A stretch of 30,205 nt of DNA, from the IMG/VR virus record IMGVR_UViG_3300017746_000085, positions 1-30,205 of that record; one strand, written 5' to 3'. The notes beneath the pieces are model-generated. The model was not told where the DNA came from. It saw only the letters and a list, made by a program, of their open reading frames with translations, and did no database searches. The position numbers and the translations under genes are program-made. This document shows positions 5,471 to 25,014 of the stretch, one piece after another (the first letter of the stretch is position 1; the number at the start of each line of letters is the position of its first letter). Origin of the DNA: a virus.

Positions 5471-5893
5471 ATGAAAAAATTACTTCTAATATTGTTATTA
5501 CCATTATCGGTATATTCTCAAGATATTGATTTTTCTAAAACTCCTCAAACTAGCGTTGATTCTTTAAGATATTATATGCATCAAGAATTAAATGAGTATA
5601 GATTACAAAACAATGTTAAAGAATTGGAATTATCTGATAGTTTAAACGAATTAGCTCAATCTTGGGCGAAGACAATGTTTGAAACTGGTGATTTTAAACA
5701 TAGTAACTTGTATCCATCTGGTGAGAATATTCAATATGGCGGCAGACATATTTTTACTCTTAAAGAGTTTTCATATTGGACATTACAATCATGGAAAGAC
5801 TCTCCCGGCCATGATGCAAATTTAAAACGTAGTTATTTTATAAAAGTTGGATATGGCTTCTATGAAGGATATAAAGTACAAATCTTTGAATAA
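5471..5893 (+). CDS. Secreted CAP-domain (SCP/PR1) protein
   Basis: 140 residues. Residues 1-16 form a signal peptide (MKKLLLILLLPLSVYS, then Q17), a form typical of Bacteroidota. The mature part is a CAP domain: ELNEYRLQNNV, SDSLNELAQSWA, FKHSN with H77, GEN with E85, and SPGHDANL with H114, then VGYGF. H77, E85 and H114 match three of the four residues of the CAP cavity. The protein stops at VQIFE, slightly before the usual end. CAP proteins act outside the cytoplasm; in bacteria their roles are poorly known. For a phage a periplasmic or surface role (wall, exclusion of other phages, host interaction) is possible. No lysis motif is present. Confidence 0.8.
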   Translation: MKKLLLILLLPLSVYSQDIDFSKTPQTSVDSLRYYMHQELNEYRLQNNVKELELSDSLNELAQSWAKTMFETGDFKHSNLYPSGENIQYGGRHIFTLKEFSYWTLQSWKDSPGHDANLKRSYFIKVGYGFYEGYKVQIFE

Positions 5894-8005: not shown

Positions 8006-8419
8006 ATGACAAATTTTAAAGAAACATTTCTATTCAACGATTTTGATTTAGTTTGGAAAAACTTATTCGATCAAAAATCATCCTATTTACCAGTAAGAAC
8101 AAATAAAATTAATTATCCAGTTGATATTTACAAAACGGATAATGGAATACAGTTTGAAATTGCTGCAGTAGGAAAAGACAAATCAGACATTGAAATAATA
8201 ACGGAAGGCGAAACTTTAAGAATAAAATATCAAAAAGACGTTGAAGAACAACGAGACTTTATTCATAAAGGAATAGCAAACCGGAACTTTGATTTTGCTT
8301 GGAAAATATCTAAGGAATTAGATTTATCTAAAGCAGAAGCTATCATGGAGAAAGGATTACTATTAATTAGTATTCCATATACAAAAGACAGAGCACCAAA
8401 ACAAATAGTTATAAAATAA
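8006..8419 (+). CDS. hsp20: Small heat-shock protein, Hsp20/alpha-crystallin family
   Basis: 137 residues. Short N-terminal region (LFNDFDLVWKNLF) followed by an alpha-crystallin domain from about residue 33: PVDIYKTDNGIQFEIAAVG, then the IRNFDFAWKI-like region (RNFDFAWKISKELDLSKAE) and the hallmark A-x-x-x-x-G-L-L-x-x-x-x-P (AIMEKGLLLISIP). The C-terminus has an I-x-I motif (IVIK) used for oligomer contacts. Such proteins are ATP-independent holdases that keep unfolded proteins soluble. Similar genes are known in marine T4-like phages, where they may protect virion assembly. It follows a terminator, so it must have its own promoter, which I could not define in 7949-7993. Confidence 0.92.
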   Translation: MTNFKETFLFNDFDLVWKNLFDQKSSYLPVRTNKINYPVDIYKTDNGIQFEIAAVGKDKSDIEIITEGETLRIKYQKDVEEQRDFIHKGIANRNFDFAWKISKELDLSKAEAIMEKGLLLISIPYTKDRAPKQIVIK

Positions 8420-8425
8420 GTTATA

Positions 8426-8629
8426 ATGAGACCTACCCCCTCAATGTATATTTTACCAACCGTAGAATATCAAAATAAACGTTTTAATATTAAAAGATTA
8501 GTTCGTGAAGATCCAAATGAAAATATAGAATATTGGAAAAATGTAATAGATCATGATGTAGTTTTAAGAAAAGATAACTACTTATGGTTTTTAACTGAAA
8601 TTTTGGACGTTGAAATTATTGAAGAATGA
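8426..8629 (+). CDS. 67-residue hypothetical protein
   Basis: Starts six bases after hsp20 stops. MRPTPSMYILPTVEYQNKRF, then IEYWKNVIDHDVVLRK, then LWFLTEILDVEIIEE. It looks like a small alpha-beta protein with a helical, acidic end. It overlaps the next gene by four bases (ATGA). No family recognised. Confidence 0.65.
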   Translation: MRPTPSMYILPTVEYQNKRFNIKRLVREDPNENIEYWKNVIDHDVVLRKDNYLWFLTEILDVEIIEE

Positions 8630-9126
8630 AAAAACAAAAACTTCCAAAATATATACAAGAAAAATTTAAAAAAGCCCAATTTAAAGTAGGAGATAAAGTT
8701 AAATACGAATTCCTAGGAGATGATGGTTGGGGAATAATAACTAAAATACAAAAATTCAATGAAACAGTTAGCTATATGGTTAAGACAAGGAATTATTCAT
8801 ATCCTTGCGGCCTTCAAATTAAAGAATTCAGTAGTTACTACGCCGGAAGTATCGACTACGAAGCCTCAAAAAATCAAAGAAATGATGAATCATCCAGACG
8901 TACAAAGAATACGAAACGAAATGATAGTGAAGCAAGGAAACGAATTTCTAGATCTAGTAGCAATACAATATCAAATACAAAAATTAGACACAGGTCAAAG
9001 AATGATTCTAGGAATGGCAATGGAGACAACAGCAAAACAGATGAAACAAGCACAGCAACAATTAAAAACATTGAATTAGAAGATGCTATATCTAAGCAAC
9101 AAAGCTTTTTAAGAAAATTTACTTAA
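8626..9126 (+). CDS. KOW/SH3-like protein overlapping a second frame
   Basis: 166 codons. The first 65 residues are convincing: FKVGDKVKYEFLGDDGWGII and YPCGLQIKEF read as a small KOW/SH3-type barrel. From about base 8825 the codons become C-ended and the protein turns into a Lys/Arg/Ser/Asn-rich stretch, the usual look of a wrong frame, while the +1 frame (8759-9079) reads like a normal protein. The last 18 codons (ELEDAISKQQSFLRKF) look natural again. So this may be a gene with a real nested overlap, or the N-terminal part of a protein joined to the other frame by a +1 shift near 8815-8830. Confidence 0.5.
   Translation: MKKQKLPKYIQEKFKKAQFKVGDKVKYEFLGDDGWGIITKIQKFNETVSYMVKTRNYSYPCGLQIKEFSSYYAGSIDYEASKNQRNDESSRRTKNTKRNDSEARKRISRSSSNTISNTKIRHRSKNDSRNGNGDNSKTDETSTATIKNIELEDAISKQQSFLRKFT
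8759..9079 (+). CDS. Nested or frameshifted helical protein
   Basis: 106 codons from the first ATG; in-frame ATGs near 8879-8882 are alternative starts. The part from about residue 35, with HPDVQRIRNEMIVKQGNEFL, LVAIQYQIQKLDTGQRMI and TTAKQMKQAQQQL, is a believable long helical protein, while its first 20-25 residues are less so. It lies entirely within the 8626 gene in the +1 frame. It is either an independent nested gene or the C-terminal half of the 8626 product read after a +1 shift. At three places where an A- or T-ending codon would create a stop in the other frame (one Ile, two Asn codons) a C-ending codon is used. Confidence 0.5.
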   Translation: MKQLAIWLRQGIIHILAAFKLKNSVVTTPEVSTTKPQKIKEMMNHPDVQRIRNEMIVKQGNEFLDLVAIQYQIQKLDTGQRMILGMAMETTAKQMKQAQQQLKTLN

Positions 9127-14970: not shown

Positions 14971-15432
14971 ATGGAACAAAAAAAATTTATACAAGTTTTA
15001 AGAAAAATAGTAAAAGAAGAAGTTAGATCTGTTATTAAAGAAGAGTTAACTGAAATTTTGCATGAAGGGTTACAATCAACCGTAAATGAATTAACAAATA
15101 AACAACCAATAACAAAAAAACCAAACAAAGTTAAAAAACATGGTATGTTTAAAGAAAATAAATTTGCAAATATTTTAAATGAAACTGAAGTAACTAGAGA
15201 ACAATCATCTCCTTCAGATTATGCTAATTTAATGAATGAAGATATTGTCATGAATTCAAGCAATGCTAGAAATTTTGGAATGCAAAGAACATTGCAAAGT
15301 GGAAATACTCCGAGTATTCAAGATGTTGAAACTGGCCAAAATATAGTTGTAGAAGATAAAGCAGTAGCAAAAGCTATGACACGTGATTATAGTGCTTTAA
15401 TGAAAGCAATAGATAAAAAGAAAAATAGATAA
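14971..15432 (+). CDS. 153-residue virion protein, helical N-terminus
   Basis: N-terminal helix with alternating Lys/Glu and Val/Ile (FIQVLRKIVKEEVRSVIKEE) then LTEILHEG, which could be a leader of the packaged-protein type (L-H-E) or a coiled coil. The rest is polar and probably extended, ending RDYSALMKAIDKKKNR. I believe similar proteins precede gp25 in marine T4-like phages, without an assigned role. It joins the gp25 gene by a TAATG overlap. Confidence 0.7.
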   Translation: MEQKKFIQVLRKIVKEEVRSVIKEELTEILHEGLQSTVNELTNKQPITKKPNKVKKHGMFKENKFANILNETEVTREQSSPSDYANLMNEDIVMNSSNARNFGMQRTLQSGNTPSIQDVETGQNIVVEDKAVAKAMTRDYSALMKAIDKKKNR

Positions 15433-15883: not shown

Positions 15884-17764
15884 ATGGAAGTATCAAAAGA
15901 CGTATCATATTTAGGAAAAGACTTTGGTCAATTTCGTAAAAATTTAATAGATTTTACAAAACAATATTTTCCTAATGATTATACTGACTTTAATGAGTCA
16001 TCACCTGGCATGATGTTTATGGAAATGTCAGCATATGTTGGAGATGTTTTAAGTTATTATGCAGATAATAATCTTAAAGAATCATTATTAGAACAAGCAT
16101 CAGAAAGAAAAAATATATATGACTTAGCTAGGTCATTGGGATATAAAAGTAAAAATGCAATTCCAGCTTATACTGATATTGATATATTCCAATTAGTACC
16201 AGCAACAGGAAGTGGTAATCTTAATGCACCAGATTTTAATTATTGTTTATCAATTAAACCAGGCATGCAAGTAAAACAAAAAGACGGACCTGCAGAATTT
16301 AGAACATTAGATTCAGTAGATTTTTCTTTTAGTTCATCATTTAACCCAACCGAAGTAAGTGTATATGAAAGTGATGACACAACAAAACAACCAGTATATT
16401 ATTTATTAAAGAAAAAAGCTCAAGTTGTATCTGGAGAAGTAAAAACTGCAACGTTTACATTTACTACTCCTAAGCAATATGATAAAATAGTATTAGATGA
16501 TACAAATATTATAGATATTCTATCATGCGAAGAATCAGACGGAGATAATTGGTATCAAGTTGATTATTTAGCACAAGATACTATTTTTAATGAAGTTCCA
16601 AATTTATTAGAGAATGATCCAGATTTTGTTCAATATAGAAGTTCAAGTCCTAGTTTATTAAAACTTCGCAAAACGTCAAAACGATTTATTACAAGATTAC
16701 GAAGTGATAAAAAAATAGAACTTCAATTTGGAGCAGGAATATCAGATAATAATGATGAAGAAATTATACCAAATCCAGATAATGTTGGAAATGGTCTTGC
16801 TGGATTTCGTAAACCAATTGATGTCGACATAGATCCTTCTAATTTTTTATATACTAGAGCTTATGGAGCAGCTCCTGCTAATACAACGTTAACTGTTACA
16901 TATACAGTTGGAGGAGGAGTAAAAGATAACGTACAGGCTTCAGTTTTAACTAATGTTGAAAAAGTAGAATTTGATGATGATCCAAATGCTACAACTAGTA
17001 CGGCTATGACAAACTTTGTTAAATCTAGTATAAGTACTACAAATGAAAACCCTGCTCGGGGAGGTAAATCTGCAGATACATTGCAAGACATAAAAAATAA
17101 TGCATTATCTAATTTTGCAACTCAGAATCGATTAGTTACTAAAGATGATTATATTATTAGATGTTATTCAATGCCAGCAAAGTTTGGAAGTATTTCAAAA
17201 GCATATATAGTTCCAGATGATCAATTATCACAAAATCAAATGGAAGAAACAAGAATTCCAAATCCATTGGCTATGAATTTATATACTTTAGGAGTTGATA
17301 ATAATAATAATTTAACAACTCTTAACGATGCAATTAAAACTAATTTAAAAAATTATTTAGATTATTATAGAATATTAACAGATGCTGTTAATATATTAGA
17401 TGCATTTATTGTTAATATTGGTATAGACTTTGAAATAACGGTTAATACAAATTATAATAGTAATGAAGTCTTATTACAATGTATTAATTTATTAAAACAA
17501 TTCTTTTCAATTGATAAATGGCAAATTAATCAGCCAATTATTATGTCAGAAGTAATGAATGTGCTAGGAAATACGGCTGGAGTACAATCTGTTGTTGATT
17601 TAGACTTTAAAAATTTATATGATACAGCTAATAAGTATTCTGGAAATGTATATGATTTAGAAAGCGCTACAAAACAAGGAATTATTTATCCACCTTTAGA
17701 CCCTGGTATATTTGAAATTAAATTCTTAAATAAAGATATTAAAGGAAGGGTAGTAAATTTTTAA
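15884..17764 (+). CDS. gp6: Baseplate wedge protein gp6-like (baseplate J family)
   Basis: 626 residues (T4 gp6 has 660). N-terminal pattern LIDFTKQYFPNDYTDFNESS followed by PGMMFMEMSAYVGDVLSYYA (about residues 23-65) is typical of gp6. Middle beta sections. Then LSNFATQNRLVTKDDYIIRC and GSISKAYIVPDD (residues about 405-450) match baseplate J-type proteins. In T4, gp6 forms the dimeric ring that links wedges and holds the baseplate in its pre-contraction state. It directly follows gp25 and lacks its own late element. Confidence 0.9.
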   Translation: MEVSKDVSYLGKDFGQFRKNLIDFTKQYFPNDYTDFNESSPGMMFMEMSAYVGDVLSYYADNNLKESLLEQASERKNIYDLARSLGYKSKNAIPAYTDIDIFQLVPATGSGNLNAPDFNYCLSIKPGMQVKQKDGPAEFRTLDSVDFSFSSSFNPTEVSVYESDDTTKQPVYYLLKKKAQVVSGEVKTATFTFTTPKQYDKIVLDDTNIIDILSCEESDGDNWYQVDYLAQDTIFNEVPNLLENDPDFVQYRSSSPSLLKLRKTSKRFITRLRSDKKIELQFGAGISDNNDEEIIPNPDNVGNGLAGFRKPIDVDIDPSNFLYTRAYGAAPANTTLTVTYTVGGGVKDNVQASVLTNVEKVEFDDDPNATTSTAMTNFVKSSISTTNENPARGGKSADTLQDIKNNALSNFATQNRLVTKDDYIIRCYSMPAKFGSISKAYIVPDDQLSQNQMEETRIPNPLAMNLYTLGVDNNNNLTTLNDAIKTNLKNYLDYYRILTDAVNILDAFIVNIGIDFEITVNTNYNSNEVLLQCINLLKQFFSIDKWQINQPIIMSEVMNVLGNTAGVQSVVDLDFKNLYDTANKYSGNVYDLESATKQGIIYPPLDPGIFEIKFLNKDIKGRVVNF

Positions 17765-21081: not shown

Positions 21082-24000
21082 ATGTTAACGCAGTACACAA
21101 ATAAAGATAAACTTTTAAATGAATCAAAAGCAACTAATGCTGAGAGGTATGATGCAAACGATCTAGATCTATTTAAAGAATCGTTATTTCAATATGGGGA
21201 AGTAAATCTAGGGACTGCTAATGCATCAAATGAATTTCATGTTTATTCTGGAGATACATGGATTACTGGAAAACACAAAGTAGATCTTGAAAATTTTGAT
21301 CAAGCAGCTTTTACTAAAGATGGAGCTCAAATACAATTAACAAGTCCTGTTAAATTTAATTTAAGTCAAGAACTTAGAAAGTTAGAATTAACATCTGGCA
21401 ATTATAGAATAATATTAAACTTTTTTGTAAATATACTTGGAAGTTATAATGCCCCATTAATGGCAATCGATGATATATCTCCAGATAGAACAGAAGTACG
21501 TTTACGTGCAATTGACGAAACTAATCCAAAATTTTTATTATCAATTAATCAATATATTAATAATGTTGCTGGAAGACAAACTGCATTAACAGACAATAAT
21601 AATTTTAGTTTTCTATTAAATTTTTCAAGAAATAAAACAAATTTATTTGTTAATAGTGTAGTTGTAGGAAAATATTTATTTGTTAAGTTATATAAACCAC
21701 TAGATGATGATATTGAGAAAAACTTTAAATGTTGGATTGTTAGAGAAAATAAATTACCATATGTAGATAATATTTCTGTTTCAGAAGTATTAGATCAGAT
21801 TACATTTAATGTGTTGCAAGGAACAAATTGGGAAGCTTCTGCAGAACAAGATACATCAAATGCAACAACTTTAAAATCATGGAGCGATTTATTAGGGTCG
21901 TCAATGCAAACATCTCAACAAATAATTGATAGTTATTTTTCTGGTAGTTTAGGCGGGGTTAAATTAAATATTGATTTTGGTGATTTTAATAATTTTGTCT
22001 TTTATAGTTCAGCAACAGAACGATTGGATAATTTTAAATATAAAATTGAATTATTAGAATACTATACTGCTCAATCTGCATCGGCTGGATTATTATCTGG
22101 ATCAGCAGCTATAGCAAATGCAGCCGATTTCAATAATTTATATACAAATTTAATTGGAGGAATGGATCAATTTGAGCAATATTTATATTATGATTCATCT
22201 TCAAAAATATTCACTCATGATATTCCAGTAGCTAATCCAGTTGTAGAATTTGTTACTGGAAGTTATATAAGCCCAGCTCCTAAATCTAATAGTACTTATC
22301 CGTTTGAGTTATATTCTGTAACAAGCAGTAATTTTGAATCTTGGTATACTGGAATACATGAAAGTGCTTCTATATATGATCTTAGAAATAATAATCGATT
22401 AATAAGAAGTATTCCAGAGTTCATGTTGTTAGATGAAAATAATGAACAATTATCTACATTTGTTAACATGTTAGGGCATCATTATGATATATTATATACA
22501 TATATAAATGCAATGACTTTAATTAATTCTAGAGATGAGCATCCTAAACAAGGTATGCCAAATGAATTATTATATACTGTAGCTAAACAATTTGGATGGA
22601 AATTGACTAATGGTGCACAATCAACTGATTTATGGGAATACACATTAGGTACTGACAGTAATGGAACACCACTAACTGGTTCAAATAGTGTAGGAGATCC
22701 ATCATTACCACTTCGTGATGTTACATATGGTATATGGCGAAGAATTGTTAATAACATTCCTGGATTATTAAAAAATAAAGGAACTAAACGTAGTGTGCAA
22801 GCATTATTAGCTTGTTATGGAGTACCTCAATCATTAATAACTATTCAAGAATATGGCGGTCCACGACTTAAAAGGCCTCCATCATATGAAAAATTAAATT
22901 TTGATTATTCATTAGATTTAATTAAAAATACAACCGGTGTTGTTAGAGTTGATTATAATCAAACAATTGGAGCAGTTGAATTAAGATTTAGAACTGATAA
23001 TGTTTTAAAGAATCCATTAGTTCCAGGAACAATGAATTTATTCTCAGCCGGCGGCAATGATGTAACTTTAGAATTTTCTAGAGGAACAATGGGAAGAATA
23101 CAAATCAACGGCACTTCATCAGCTGAAATTGAAATGTTTGAAGGTGATTATTTAACTGCATTATTACGTACTGGTTCTAATAATAGTATTGAAGTATTAG
23201 CAAAAAAATCAAAATTTGGAAAAATTATCAATACTGTTTCTGCATCAGCAACTGGCTCATTTTCTAATCCTGGGACTGTATTAATAGGAGGCACATCTGG
23301 CGGAAGTCGTTTATTAGGACAAGTACAAGAATTACGTATGTGGACCGGTAGTTTAAATGATGCTCCATATACTAATCATACAAAAGCTCCGTCTGCATAT
23401 GATGGAAATGTAGATGCATATGACGAATTAGTTTTTAGAACTCCTTTAACTCAAAAAATTAATCACGCAGCTACTAGTAGTTTAACTGGAGTACAACCTG
23501 ATATTGGAACAACTATATCAGCATCATTTACCGGATCTGGATATCCAGCGTGGACAAATAGTACTCCATATGATTCTATAGAAGAAACATATTATTTTGA
23601 TGGAATATCATTAGGGGGCGGTACGTTTGATGATAATAAAGTAAGAATTGAATCAACTGAGTTACTTAACACATTAAATGTAGAAAATAGAGCTACTAGA
23701 AATGGATTTGATACTGCTCCTTTAGATTCTAATAAGTTGGGAATATATTATTCTCCTCAAACAATGATCAATGATGATATTATTGCTCAATTAGGATTTA
23801 CAATATTGGATGATTTAATTGGAGATCCACGTGCAAAAGAAAATAGATATACATACCCTGATTTAATTAATACGTCTCGTGAGTATTGGAAAAAATATTC
23901 AACTAAGAATGATATGAATTCATATCTACGAATATTTTCTTTATTTGATTTATCTTTCTTTAAGCAATTAGAACAATTATTACCTGCTAGATCTGAAAAA

Positions 24001-25014
24001 ATATTAGGATTATTAATACAGCCAACTATTATTGAAAGAAGTAAAGACACTGCATTAACAGAAATATCAAAATTAAATCAAACTCATTTATCTGAAATAC
24101 ACGTACCTGATTTTGTTATTCCTAGTGCAAGTAGACTGAATCCAGAAGGTGATATATTCAGAGATTTTGAAATTTTATCTGGCTCTCAAGAAAATTTTGT
24201 AACAGAATTATTTGCCGCTCCAGACATAAATGATAACAAAGTGCAGATATTTGCGTCGGCTTCATTACCTGCAGTTGGAGACAATCTTGTAGAAGGCAAA
24301 TGGCAATCATTTGCATCGTCTTCATTACCGGTAATTGGGGATAACCTCATGCAAGGAAAATGGCAATCATTTGCTTCAGCTTCATTGCCTGTAATAGGAG
24401 ATAATCTCATAGAAGCAACCGATCAATTTATTGCGTCAGCTTCATTTGATACAAACCCGGATATAGATGGTGCTTATCAAACAACTGCATCTGGATCTAT
24501 TGAAACTACTAAGACAGACGTTACTAGTATTGCATTAATAGATTATGAGTGTAAATTACAAAATAGTAACTTAGAATTTTTTAATATAGAAGGAACAGCT
24601 GTAAATTATAATGCAAGATTAATAACCAATAAAGATCCGTATGCTGGAACTGTATATTCACACACTAGTATAATTTTTTCTGGCAGTTCGTTTGTTACAT
24701 CATCTACACCTTATTGGGAGTCAGAAGCTATATCTTTATTCATAACTAGTAGTAGATTATCAGAATTTAACAAAACTAGATATAAATTAGGTATTACTGG
24801 ATCTGAATTACGAGTAGCTGAATTTCAAGATTATCTTCCTACCGGAATAGCTAATCATAGATTTAACGGCTGTAAAATATCTAGTCCAGATTATAATGTT
24901 AATTCAAAAGACACTCCAGATGGAAAGCCAGTTATTGAAGTTTCTATAACTACAGGAAATAAATTATATATAGAGCCGCCTGGAAGTAAAGGATTATTTG
25001 ATGTTAAAGGATAA
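21082..25014 (+). CDS. 1310-residue baseplate/tail structural protein with LamG-like module
   Basis: The size and position after gp6 suggest a role like that of T4 gp7 (1032 residues) in the wedge, but no direct match is visible. Conserved-looking helical section around residues 450-580: SIPEFMLLDENNEQLSTFVN, LGHHYDILYTYINAM, NIPGLLKNKGTKRSVQALLA and CYGVP. Around 640-770 there is a LamG/concanavalin-like module (VLIGGTSGGSRLLGQVQELR, MWTGSLND). Near residues 1055-1130 is a three-fold 20-residue repeat (see 24244). The C-terminus is beta-rich and ends GSKGLFDVKG. I believe similar giant proteins occur in marine T4-like phages. A carbohydrate-binding role of the LamG module is inferred from the family. 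Confidence 0.75.
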   Translation: MLTQYTNKDKLLNESKATNAERYDANDLDLFKESLFQYGEVNLGTANASNEFHVYSGDTWITGKHKVDLENFDQAAFTKDGAQIQLTSPVKFNLSQELRKLELTSGNYRIILNFFVNILGSYNAPLMAIDDISPDRTEVRLRAIDETNPKFLLSINQYINNVAGRQTALTDNNNFSFLLNFSRNKTNLFVNSVVVGKYLFVKLYKPLDDDIEKNFKCWIVRENKLPYVDNISVSEVLDQITFNVLQGTNWEASAEQDTSNATTLKSWSDLLGSSMQTSQQIIDSYFSGSLGGVKLNIDFGDFNNFVFYSSATERLDNFKYKIELLEYYTAQSASAGLLSGSAAIANAADFNNLYTNLIGGMDQFEQYLYYDSSSKIFTHDIPVANPVVEFVTGSYISPAPKSNSTYPFELYSVTSSNFESWYTGIHESASIYDLRNNNRLIRSIPEFMLLDENNEQLSTFVNMLGHHYDILYTYINAMTLINSRDEHPKQGMPNELLYTVAKQFGWKLTNGAQSTDLWEYTLGTDSNGTPLTGSNSVGDPSLPLRDVTYGIWRRIVNNIPGLLKNKGTKRSVQALLACYGVPQSLITIQEYGGPRLKRPPSYEKLNFDYSLDLIKNTTGVVRVDYNQTIGAVELRFRTDNVLKNPLVPGTMNLFSAGGNDVTLEFSRGTMGRIQINGTSSAEIEMFEGDYLTALLRTGSNNSIEVLAKKSKFGKIINTVSASATGSFSNPGTVLIGGTSGGSRLLGQVQELRMWTGSLNDAPYTNHTKAPSAYDGNVDAYDELVFRTPLTQKINHAATSSLTGVQPDIGTTISASFTGSGYPAWTNSTPYDSIEETYYFDGISLGGGTFDDNKVRIESTELLNTLNVENRATRNGFDTAPLDSNKLGIYYSPQTMINDDIIAQLGFTILDDLIGDPRAKENRYTYPDLINTSREYWKKYSTKNDMNSYLRIFSLFDLSFFKQLEQLLPARSEKILGLLIQPTIIERSKDTALTEISKLNQTHLSEIHVPDFVIPSASRLNPEGDIFRDFEILSGSQENFVTELFAAPDINDNKVQIFASASLPAVGDNLVEGKWQSFASSSLPVIGDNLMQGKWQSFASASLPVIGDNLIEATDQFIASASFDTNPDIDGAYQTTASGSIETTKTDVTSIALIDYECKLQNSNLEFFNIEGTAVNYNARLITNKDPYAGTVYSHTSIIFSGSSFVTSSTPYWESEAISLFITSSRLSEFNKTRYKLGITGSELRVAEFQDYLPTGIANHRFNGCKISSPDYNVNSKDTPDGKPVIEVSITTGNKLYIEPPGSKGLFDVKG
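24244..24480 (+). repeat. Tandem 60-base coding repeats
   Basis: Three in-frame units of exactly 60 bases (24244-24303, 24304-24363, 24364-24423), each coding for 20 residues of the type QSFASASLPVIGDNL plus five more, followed by a degenerate fourth unit to about 24480. Synonymous differences between units show they are not brand new. They form a Ser/Ala-rich spacer in the 1310-residue protein. Confidence 0.85.

Follow-up and report, generated by a model that had tools for sequence, protein, structure and literature searches.

Does a stretch of 500 bases in an AT-rich phage genome encode two proteins in overlapping frames of one strand, or is a single gene read there, shifted or broken? Two open reading frames raise this question, an outer frame (f0) and a frame inside it (f1) in the +1 register of f0. 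Both lie and extend as a preliminary description of the locus had claimed (Table 1); it had left open whether they form a nested gene or a +1 frameshift. The sequence evidence indicates that the stretch probably encodes two proteins, and does so in a large group of uncharacterised environmental phages.

The window, by which we mean the whole stretch of DNA analysed, is a virus record of 30,205 bases, AT-rich with a GC content of ~0.29. Its source is a large tailed phage. T4-type baseplate genes are present, namely a gp25-like gene at 15432 (Pfam E 5e-12) and a gene for a gp6-like protein at 15884, the nearest annotated relatives of which are found in Microcystis phage Mel-JY01 (51%) and Flavobacterium phage immuto (41%). 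The ATG of f0 overlaps the stop of the preceding ORF (ATGA).

Table 1. Position of the overlapping frames and their parts within the window
Feature	Position	Strand	Description and basis
f0, outer gene	8626..9126	+	166 aa; predicted SH3-like barrel, disordered linker and C-terminal helix (AlphaFold2 model); full length kept in 81 distinct relatives
f0 SH3-like (KOW-like) barrel, residues ~7-77	8644..8856	+	Invariant YPCG[IL]QI motif; AlphaFold2 mean pLDDT ~89; invariant columns
f1, probable nested gene, +1 frame	8759..9079	+	106 aa; stop TAG 9077-9079 included; f1-profile match in 80/81 relatives
Putative internal ATG of f1	8759..8761	+	133 nt past f0 start; six codons past last in-frame f1 stop
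Overlap part A1, f1 codons 1-33	8759..8857	+	f0 amino acids constrained, f1 merely stop-free; codon-position pattern and stop avoidance
Overlap part B, f1 helical core / f0 disordered linker	8858..9076	+	Three predicted helices, pLDDT 89-97 over most
f1 Ile codon ATC	8873-8875	+	Precedes AAA; ATT would give an f0 stop
f1 Asn codon AAC	8915-8917	+	Precedes GAA; AAT would give an f0 stop
f1 Asn codon AAC	8939-8941	+	Precedes GAA; AAT would give an f0 stop
f0 C-terminal helix (ELE.AI.KQ..FLR.F) and stop	9052..9126	+	Mostly past f1 stop; f0-type constraint resumes

Relatives of the pair

Searches of IMG/VR, first with f0 and f1 separately and afterwards with alignments as queries, yielded about 100 loci. 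A profile scan of all fetched loci identified 81 distinct f0 homologues, with identity down to ~30%, and 80 of them contain a nested f1 match, in the +1 register every time. When f1 only was used as the query, IMG/VR returned nested copies exclusively, and the profile scan detected no free-standing f1 among the fetched loci. Complete sequences of the pair were available from 76 distinct relatives.

The sole f0 homologue without f1 is that of locus L070, in which the whole overlap region is missing. Positions 475-738 of this locus encode a stand-alone barrel protein of 87 aa, which ends after the barrel and is ~70% identical to the barrel of f0; the neighbouring genes differ from those of the other f0 loci. 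Horizontal transfer or truncation of the barrel, with no nested gene attached, is a possible origin. A barrel-only search with this protein retrieved known loci and one new locus, L215, which likewise holds a nested f1.

The phages carrying the pair are represented by contigs of up to 173 kb. The four genes upstream (window 6148, 6345, 6933 and 7489) have homologues in 56/56 long loci, which makes the pair a syntenic core feature of this phage group. In the close clade the pair adjoins a gene for a phage-encoded Hsp20 small heat-shock protein (window 8006-8419), which, unlike most genes in the window, is preceded by a strong Shine-Dalgarno sequence.

The two-frame layout bears on the idea that an assembly or sequencing indel near 8815-8830 has broken one continuous gene. 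The window sequence looks as such an indel would make it look, with f0 reading well up to ~8820 and f1 thereafter. However, the identical 166-aa f0 protein is encoded on three other IMG/VR contigs from separate metagenomes, which excludes an indel error, and about 80 diverged relatives keep the same layout. Moreover, conservation of f0 resumes past the f1 stop, and a single continuous fused frame is present in none of the relatives. We therefore give this explanation practically no credence.

A tblastn search of INPHARED revealed no homologue of f0 or f1 except a 51-residue match in a Listeria phage (E 0.05), none was found in GTDB genomes, and f0 is absent from the nearest cultured phages by baseplate gene (Mel-JY01, immuto). 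A match of f1 in Mel-JY01 (E 0.0012) was judged to be due to chance, as it covers a 37-residue stretch of an ordinary, non-nested ORF. Family searches of Pfam and PHROGs gave weak, inconsistent matches alone, with no Pfam match for f0, and neither a PDB sequence search nor Foldseek against PDB and BFVD returned anything for the pair at E <= 0.001. Within the searched collections and literature, f0/f1 is an undescribed pair of a known kind, that of overprinted nested genes. Gene callers tend to discard long same-strand overlaps, and f1 would thus normally be missed.

Selection on both frames

The length of a frame alone is insufficient as proof, since other genes of these phages hold sporadic +1 frames of 85-168 codons. 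Almost all of these belong to one gene family, which we take to be UvdE-like (L071, L073, L092, L096, L106, L153, L194 and others). Their extent varies, and they look like an effect of composition, without any sign of function. They warn against inferring a nested gene merely from the length of a frame, and they lend some colour to the view that at our locus, too, a single frame is translated while the other is open by composition or chance. In contrast to these variable, sporadic frames, the extents of f0 and f1 are conserved in about 80 relatives.

Variability was measured as mean pairwise differences per f0 codon position 1/2/3; the third position of f1 is the first of f0, and the second of f1 is the third of f0. 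In 18 ungapped relatives, the values were.16/.13/.31 before the overlap,.13/.10/.32 in its first part,.35/.29/.135 in the f1 core and.23/.14/.43 after the f1 stop. Position 3 of f0 is hence the most variable one in the SH3-like barrel and the least variable one in the f1 core, where position 3 of f1 varies most. The same flip is present in 29 disjoint pairs drawn from the 76 sequences. Together with the register relation it indicates that selection on protein sequence targets f1 within the core and f0 outside it. Residues 1-33 of f1 show no amino-acid constraint of their own, the frame being merely stop-free, and the C-terminal helix of f0 past the f1 stop is conserved across the clade.

Stop codons are avoided in both directions. 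Under synonymous recoding of f1, ~5.3 f0 stops are expected across the core, and given f0, ~2.5 f1 stops are expected before it; none is observed in either case. The joint chance over 19 clusters (below 70% nucleotide identity, treated as independent) is ~10^-53 for f0 being open in the core given f1 and ~10^-36 for f1 being open before the core given f0, both to be read as orders of magnitude and not as exact values, the per-sequence estimates having a floor of 1/4001. For the window sequence itself, the whole f1 frame is open in ~1% of synonymous recodings with the f0 amino acids fixed, and f0 is open across the core in <0.1% of recodings with the f1 amino acids fixed.

Avoidance is evident at the level of single codons as well. 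The preliminary description had drawn attention to three C-ending f1 codons at sites where a T would stop f0. They are present (Table 1), and the argument extends well beyond the window. Among C/T-ending codons of the f1 core in the 76 relatives, C is used in 257/257 cases where T would create an f0 stop, compared with 227/712 elsewhere; conversely, an effect missing from that description, f0 avoids TA endings that would stop f1, such endings occurring in 0/468 Ile/Leu/Val codons in the overlap before the core and in 65/162 in the f0-only 5' part, and in both counts it is the contrast with the control contexts that is informative, the zeros merely restating that the frames are open.

As had been suspected, selection keeps both frames open; conservation in about 80 relatives and stop avoidance bear this out. 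Translation of a single frame is effectively refuted by the joint stop avoidance, and the codon-position flip with f0 conserved on both sides of the f1 core speaks against it as well. We consider it scarcely tenable.

Probable expression of f1

The best explanation overall, and on the sequence evidence a very probable one, is an overprinted dual-coding pair in which f1 is translated from its own internal ATG. One stretch of mRNA would then give rise to two proteins. Translation of f0 from 8626 would yield an SH3-like barrel followed by a basic disordered linker and a C-terminal helix. By starting also within the gene, on the +1-frame ATG at 8759, ribosomes would make f1, the conserved part of which is a predicted helical core of ~73 residues encoded by the DNA of the f0 linker.

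An f1 ATG is located at +103..+145 in 76/76 complete relatives. In 56/76 of them the first ATG follows an in-frame f1 stop by no more than 7 codons, and the stop-free stretch starts there; f1 is stop-free over ~33-85 codons upstream of the conserved core. The f0 residues make the ATG nearly inevitable (expected in 17.9/19 clusters) and alone suffice to explain it. Its presence is therefore permissive, not positive evidence for initiation, and we dropped its conservation as an argument. A start at a second pair of ATG codons (8882/8885) was rejected, as the pair is missing in L060, L061 and L065 and f1 is open well upstream of it.

No Shine-Dalgarno sequence precedes the f1 ATG, which counts against an internal start, but an SD-like core was found at just 11/34 window genes checked. 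The ribosomes of Bacteroidota are reported to be blind to Shine-Dalgarno sequences (PMC9976891). Similarity to Flavobacterium phages hints at a host from this phylum; if this is so, the missing Shine-Dalgarno sequence would be no obstacle to an internal start.

The missing Shine-Dalgarno sequence suits a different mechanism, a programmed +1 ribosomal frameshift (or transcriptional slippage) that fuses the f0 barrel to the f1 core, with unshifted ribosomes producing f0. Close to where the barrel ends, f1 indeed takes over the constraint from f0, which is what a fusion predicts. With a shift at that site, f1 need not be open upstream, yet the 2.5 expected stops are absent in all lineages. A shift further upstream would have little room, having to take place after the last f1 stop and before the ATG (<=7 codons in 56/76). 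Moreover, the A-run near 8870 is not conserved, inspection of the close clade by eye revealed neither a stop codon nor a common slippery motif in f0 at the switch, and f0 does not end with f1 but goes on to encode a conserved C-terminal helix of its own. Frameshifting is thus improbable, and we infer that internal initiation at 8759 is to be preferred. Of the two readings initially offered for the locus, the nested gene is strongly favoured by both frames being kept in about 80 relatives, and the frameshift is disfavoured.

Predicted structures and possible function

In the AlphaFold2 model of f0, the SH3-like barrel (residues ~7-77) is followed by a disordered linker (91-145) and a C-terminal helix (143-163). 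In the model of f1, the three helices of the core are predicted with confidence, and the N-terminal helix that precedes them is predicted poorly. The ordered core of f1 coincides with the disordered linker of f0, so that the models suggest a clean division of labour, with a folded protein in one frame and a disordered linker in the other. The protein encoded by f0 is basic (pI ~9.9 in the window; mean pI 9.8 over 19 representatives), its linker consists to 61% of S/N/T/R/K/G, and the f1 core is near neutral.

Like ribosomal L24 and chromo/Tudor domains, f0 would be a small all-beta barrel of the KOW/SH3-like type with a KxGDxV entry strand. It differs from them in lacking a significant sequence or fold match, and the f0 family is set apart by its invariant YPCG[IL]QI motif and its linker-helix tail. 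The sequence match to chloroplast L24 is weak (E 0.31), as are the structure matches found by Foldseek (best E 0.05; several SH3-type barrels at probability 0.95-0.99). The term KOW-like used in the preliminary description is apt as an impression of the fold and finds no significant match to a KOW family. Given its pI of ~9.9 and its barrel plus basic tail, f0 might bind nucleic acid, RNA polymerase or the ribosome or another ribonucleoprotein, and f1 might be a co-expressed helical partner or regulator of f0. These tentative roles for the pair are drawn from a weak fold resemblance.

Comparison with known overlapping genes

The embedded two-component spanins of phage lambda, Rz and Rz1, are a close parallel in layout. 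Rz1 lies within Rz in the +1 frame, such pairs occur in many phages, and they are usually missed by gene callers (PMC6139136). As in lambda, the smaller gene lies wholly inside the larger one, in the +1 frame, starts part-way and ends near the end of the outer gene. Unlike Rz1, an outer-membrane lipoprotein with a signal peptide, f1 carries neither a lipoprotein signal nor a lipobox cysteine, and f1 of the window has no cysteine. Unlike Rz, f0 begins MKKQKLPKYIQEKFKKAQFKVGDKV... and has no hydrophobic segment and no N-terminal transmembrane domain; it is a basic barrel protein. A spanin identity was rejected, as the defining features are absent, and the likeness is limited to the coding architecture.

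Surveys of viral overlaps report +1 as the commonest register of internal overlaps (PMC8227390). Of the overprinted viral genes described there, those on the same strand in the +1 frame resemble f0/f1 in that one protein is disordered in the overlap and codon usage differs between the frames. However, the curated cases are mostly from small genomes, and f0/f1 phages reach contigs of 173 kb. A further difference is that the ordered protein is that of f1, whose codon usage is the less typical of the two. With 76 distinct complete sequences, the overlap is unusually well sampled, and in phages with large genomes the saving of space is no obvious motive. It is therefore a good case for studying how overlapping genes start and persist.

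Origin of the overlap

In the core, f0 has a codon typicality of -0.22 and f1 one of -0.42, ordinary genes scoring 0.00 +/- 0.16; the wrong-frame references are -0.35 (f0 register relative to f1) and -0.55 (+1). On this measure f0 is somewhat more likely to be the older frame, and the barrel of L070 exists without f1. The evidence is weak, since the frames constrain each other and the distributions are almost identical.

It is conceivable, if unlikely, that f1 arose de novo within the disordered f0 linker, has since evolved into a folded helical protein and has become an obligatory partner of f0. In that case a de novo phage gene would have persisted for a long time throughout a clade of large phages, and its codon usage would still bear traces of its birth. 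The reverse order, to which we attach equally limited credit, makes f1 the older and once separate gene; the barrel gene would have lost its stop and run through f1 in the other frame, with linker and tail added later. The f1 core is ordered and conserved where f0 is disordered, and the barrel protein of L070 ends before the overlap, as this order of events would have it. Against it stand the core codon usage, which is more typical for f0 than for f1, the lack of a free-standing f1 in our searches and the clade-wide conservation of the f0 C-terminal helix. This alternative concerns the origin of the pair and not its present two-protein state.

Other genes of the window and its relatives

Further observations concern genes apart from the pair. 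The gene at window 5471-5893 encodes a CAP-domain protein (cysteine-rich secretory protein family; Pfam E 2e-11) with a signal-peptide-like N-terminus. The gene at 21082-25014, for a large structural or tail protein, contains a repeat unit of ~20 residues, FASASLPVIGDNLxxGKWQS, at 24186-24410. The otherwise unrelated proteins of the window genes at 443, 1140, 2281 and 28863 have a common N-terminal motif, MIKL(K/Q)xIL.., and a different common N-terminus, MKNxLAENMxRFGxKNL, is found in the relatives L073 and L074. By analogy with the internal proteins of T4, such motifs could be a capsid-targeting or processing signal.
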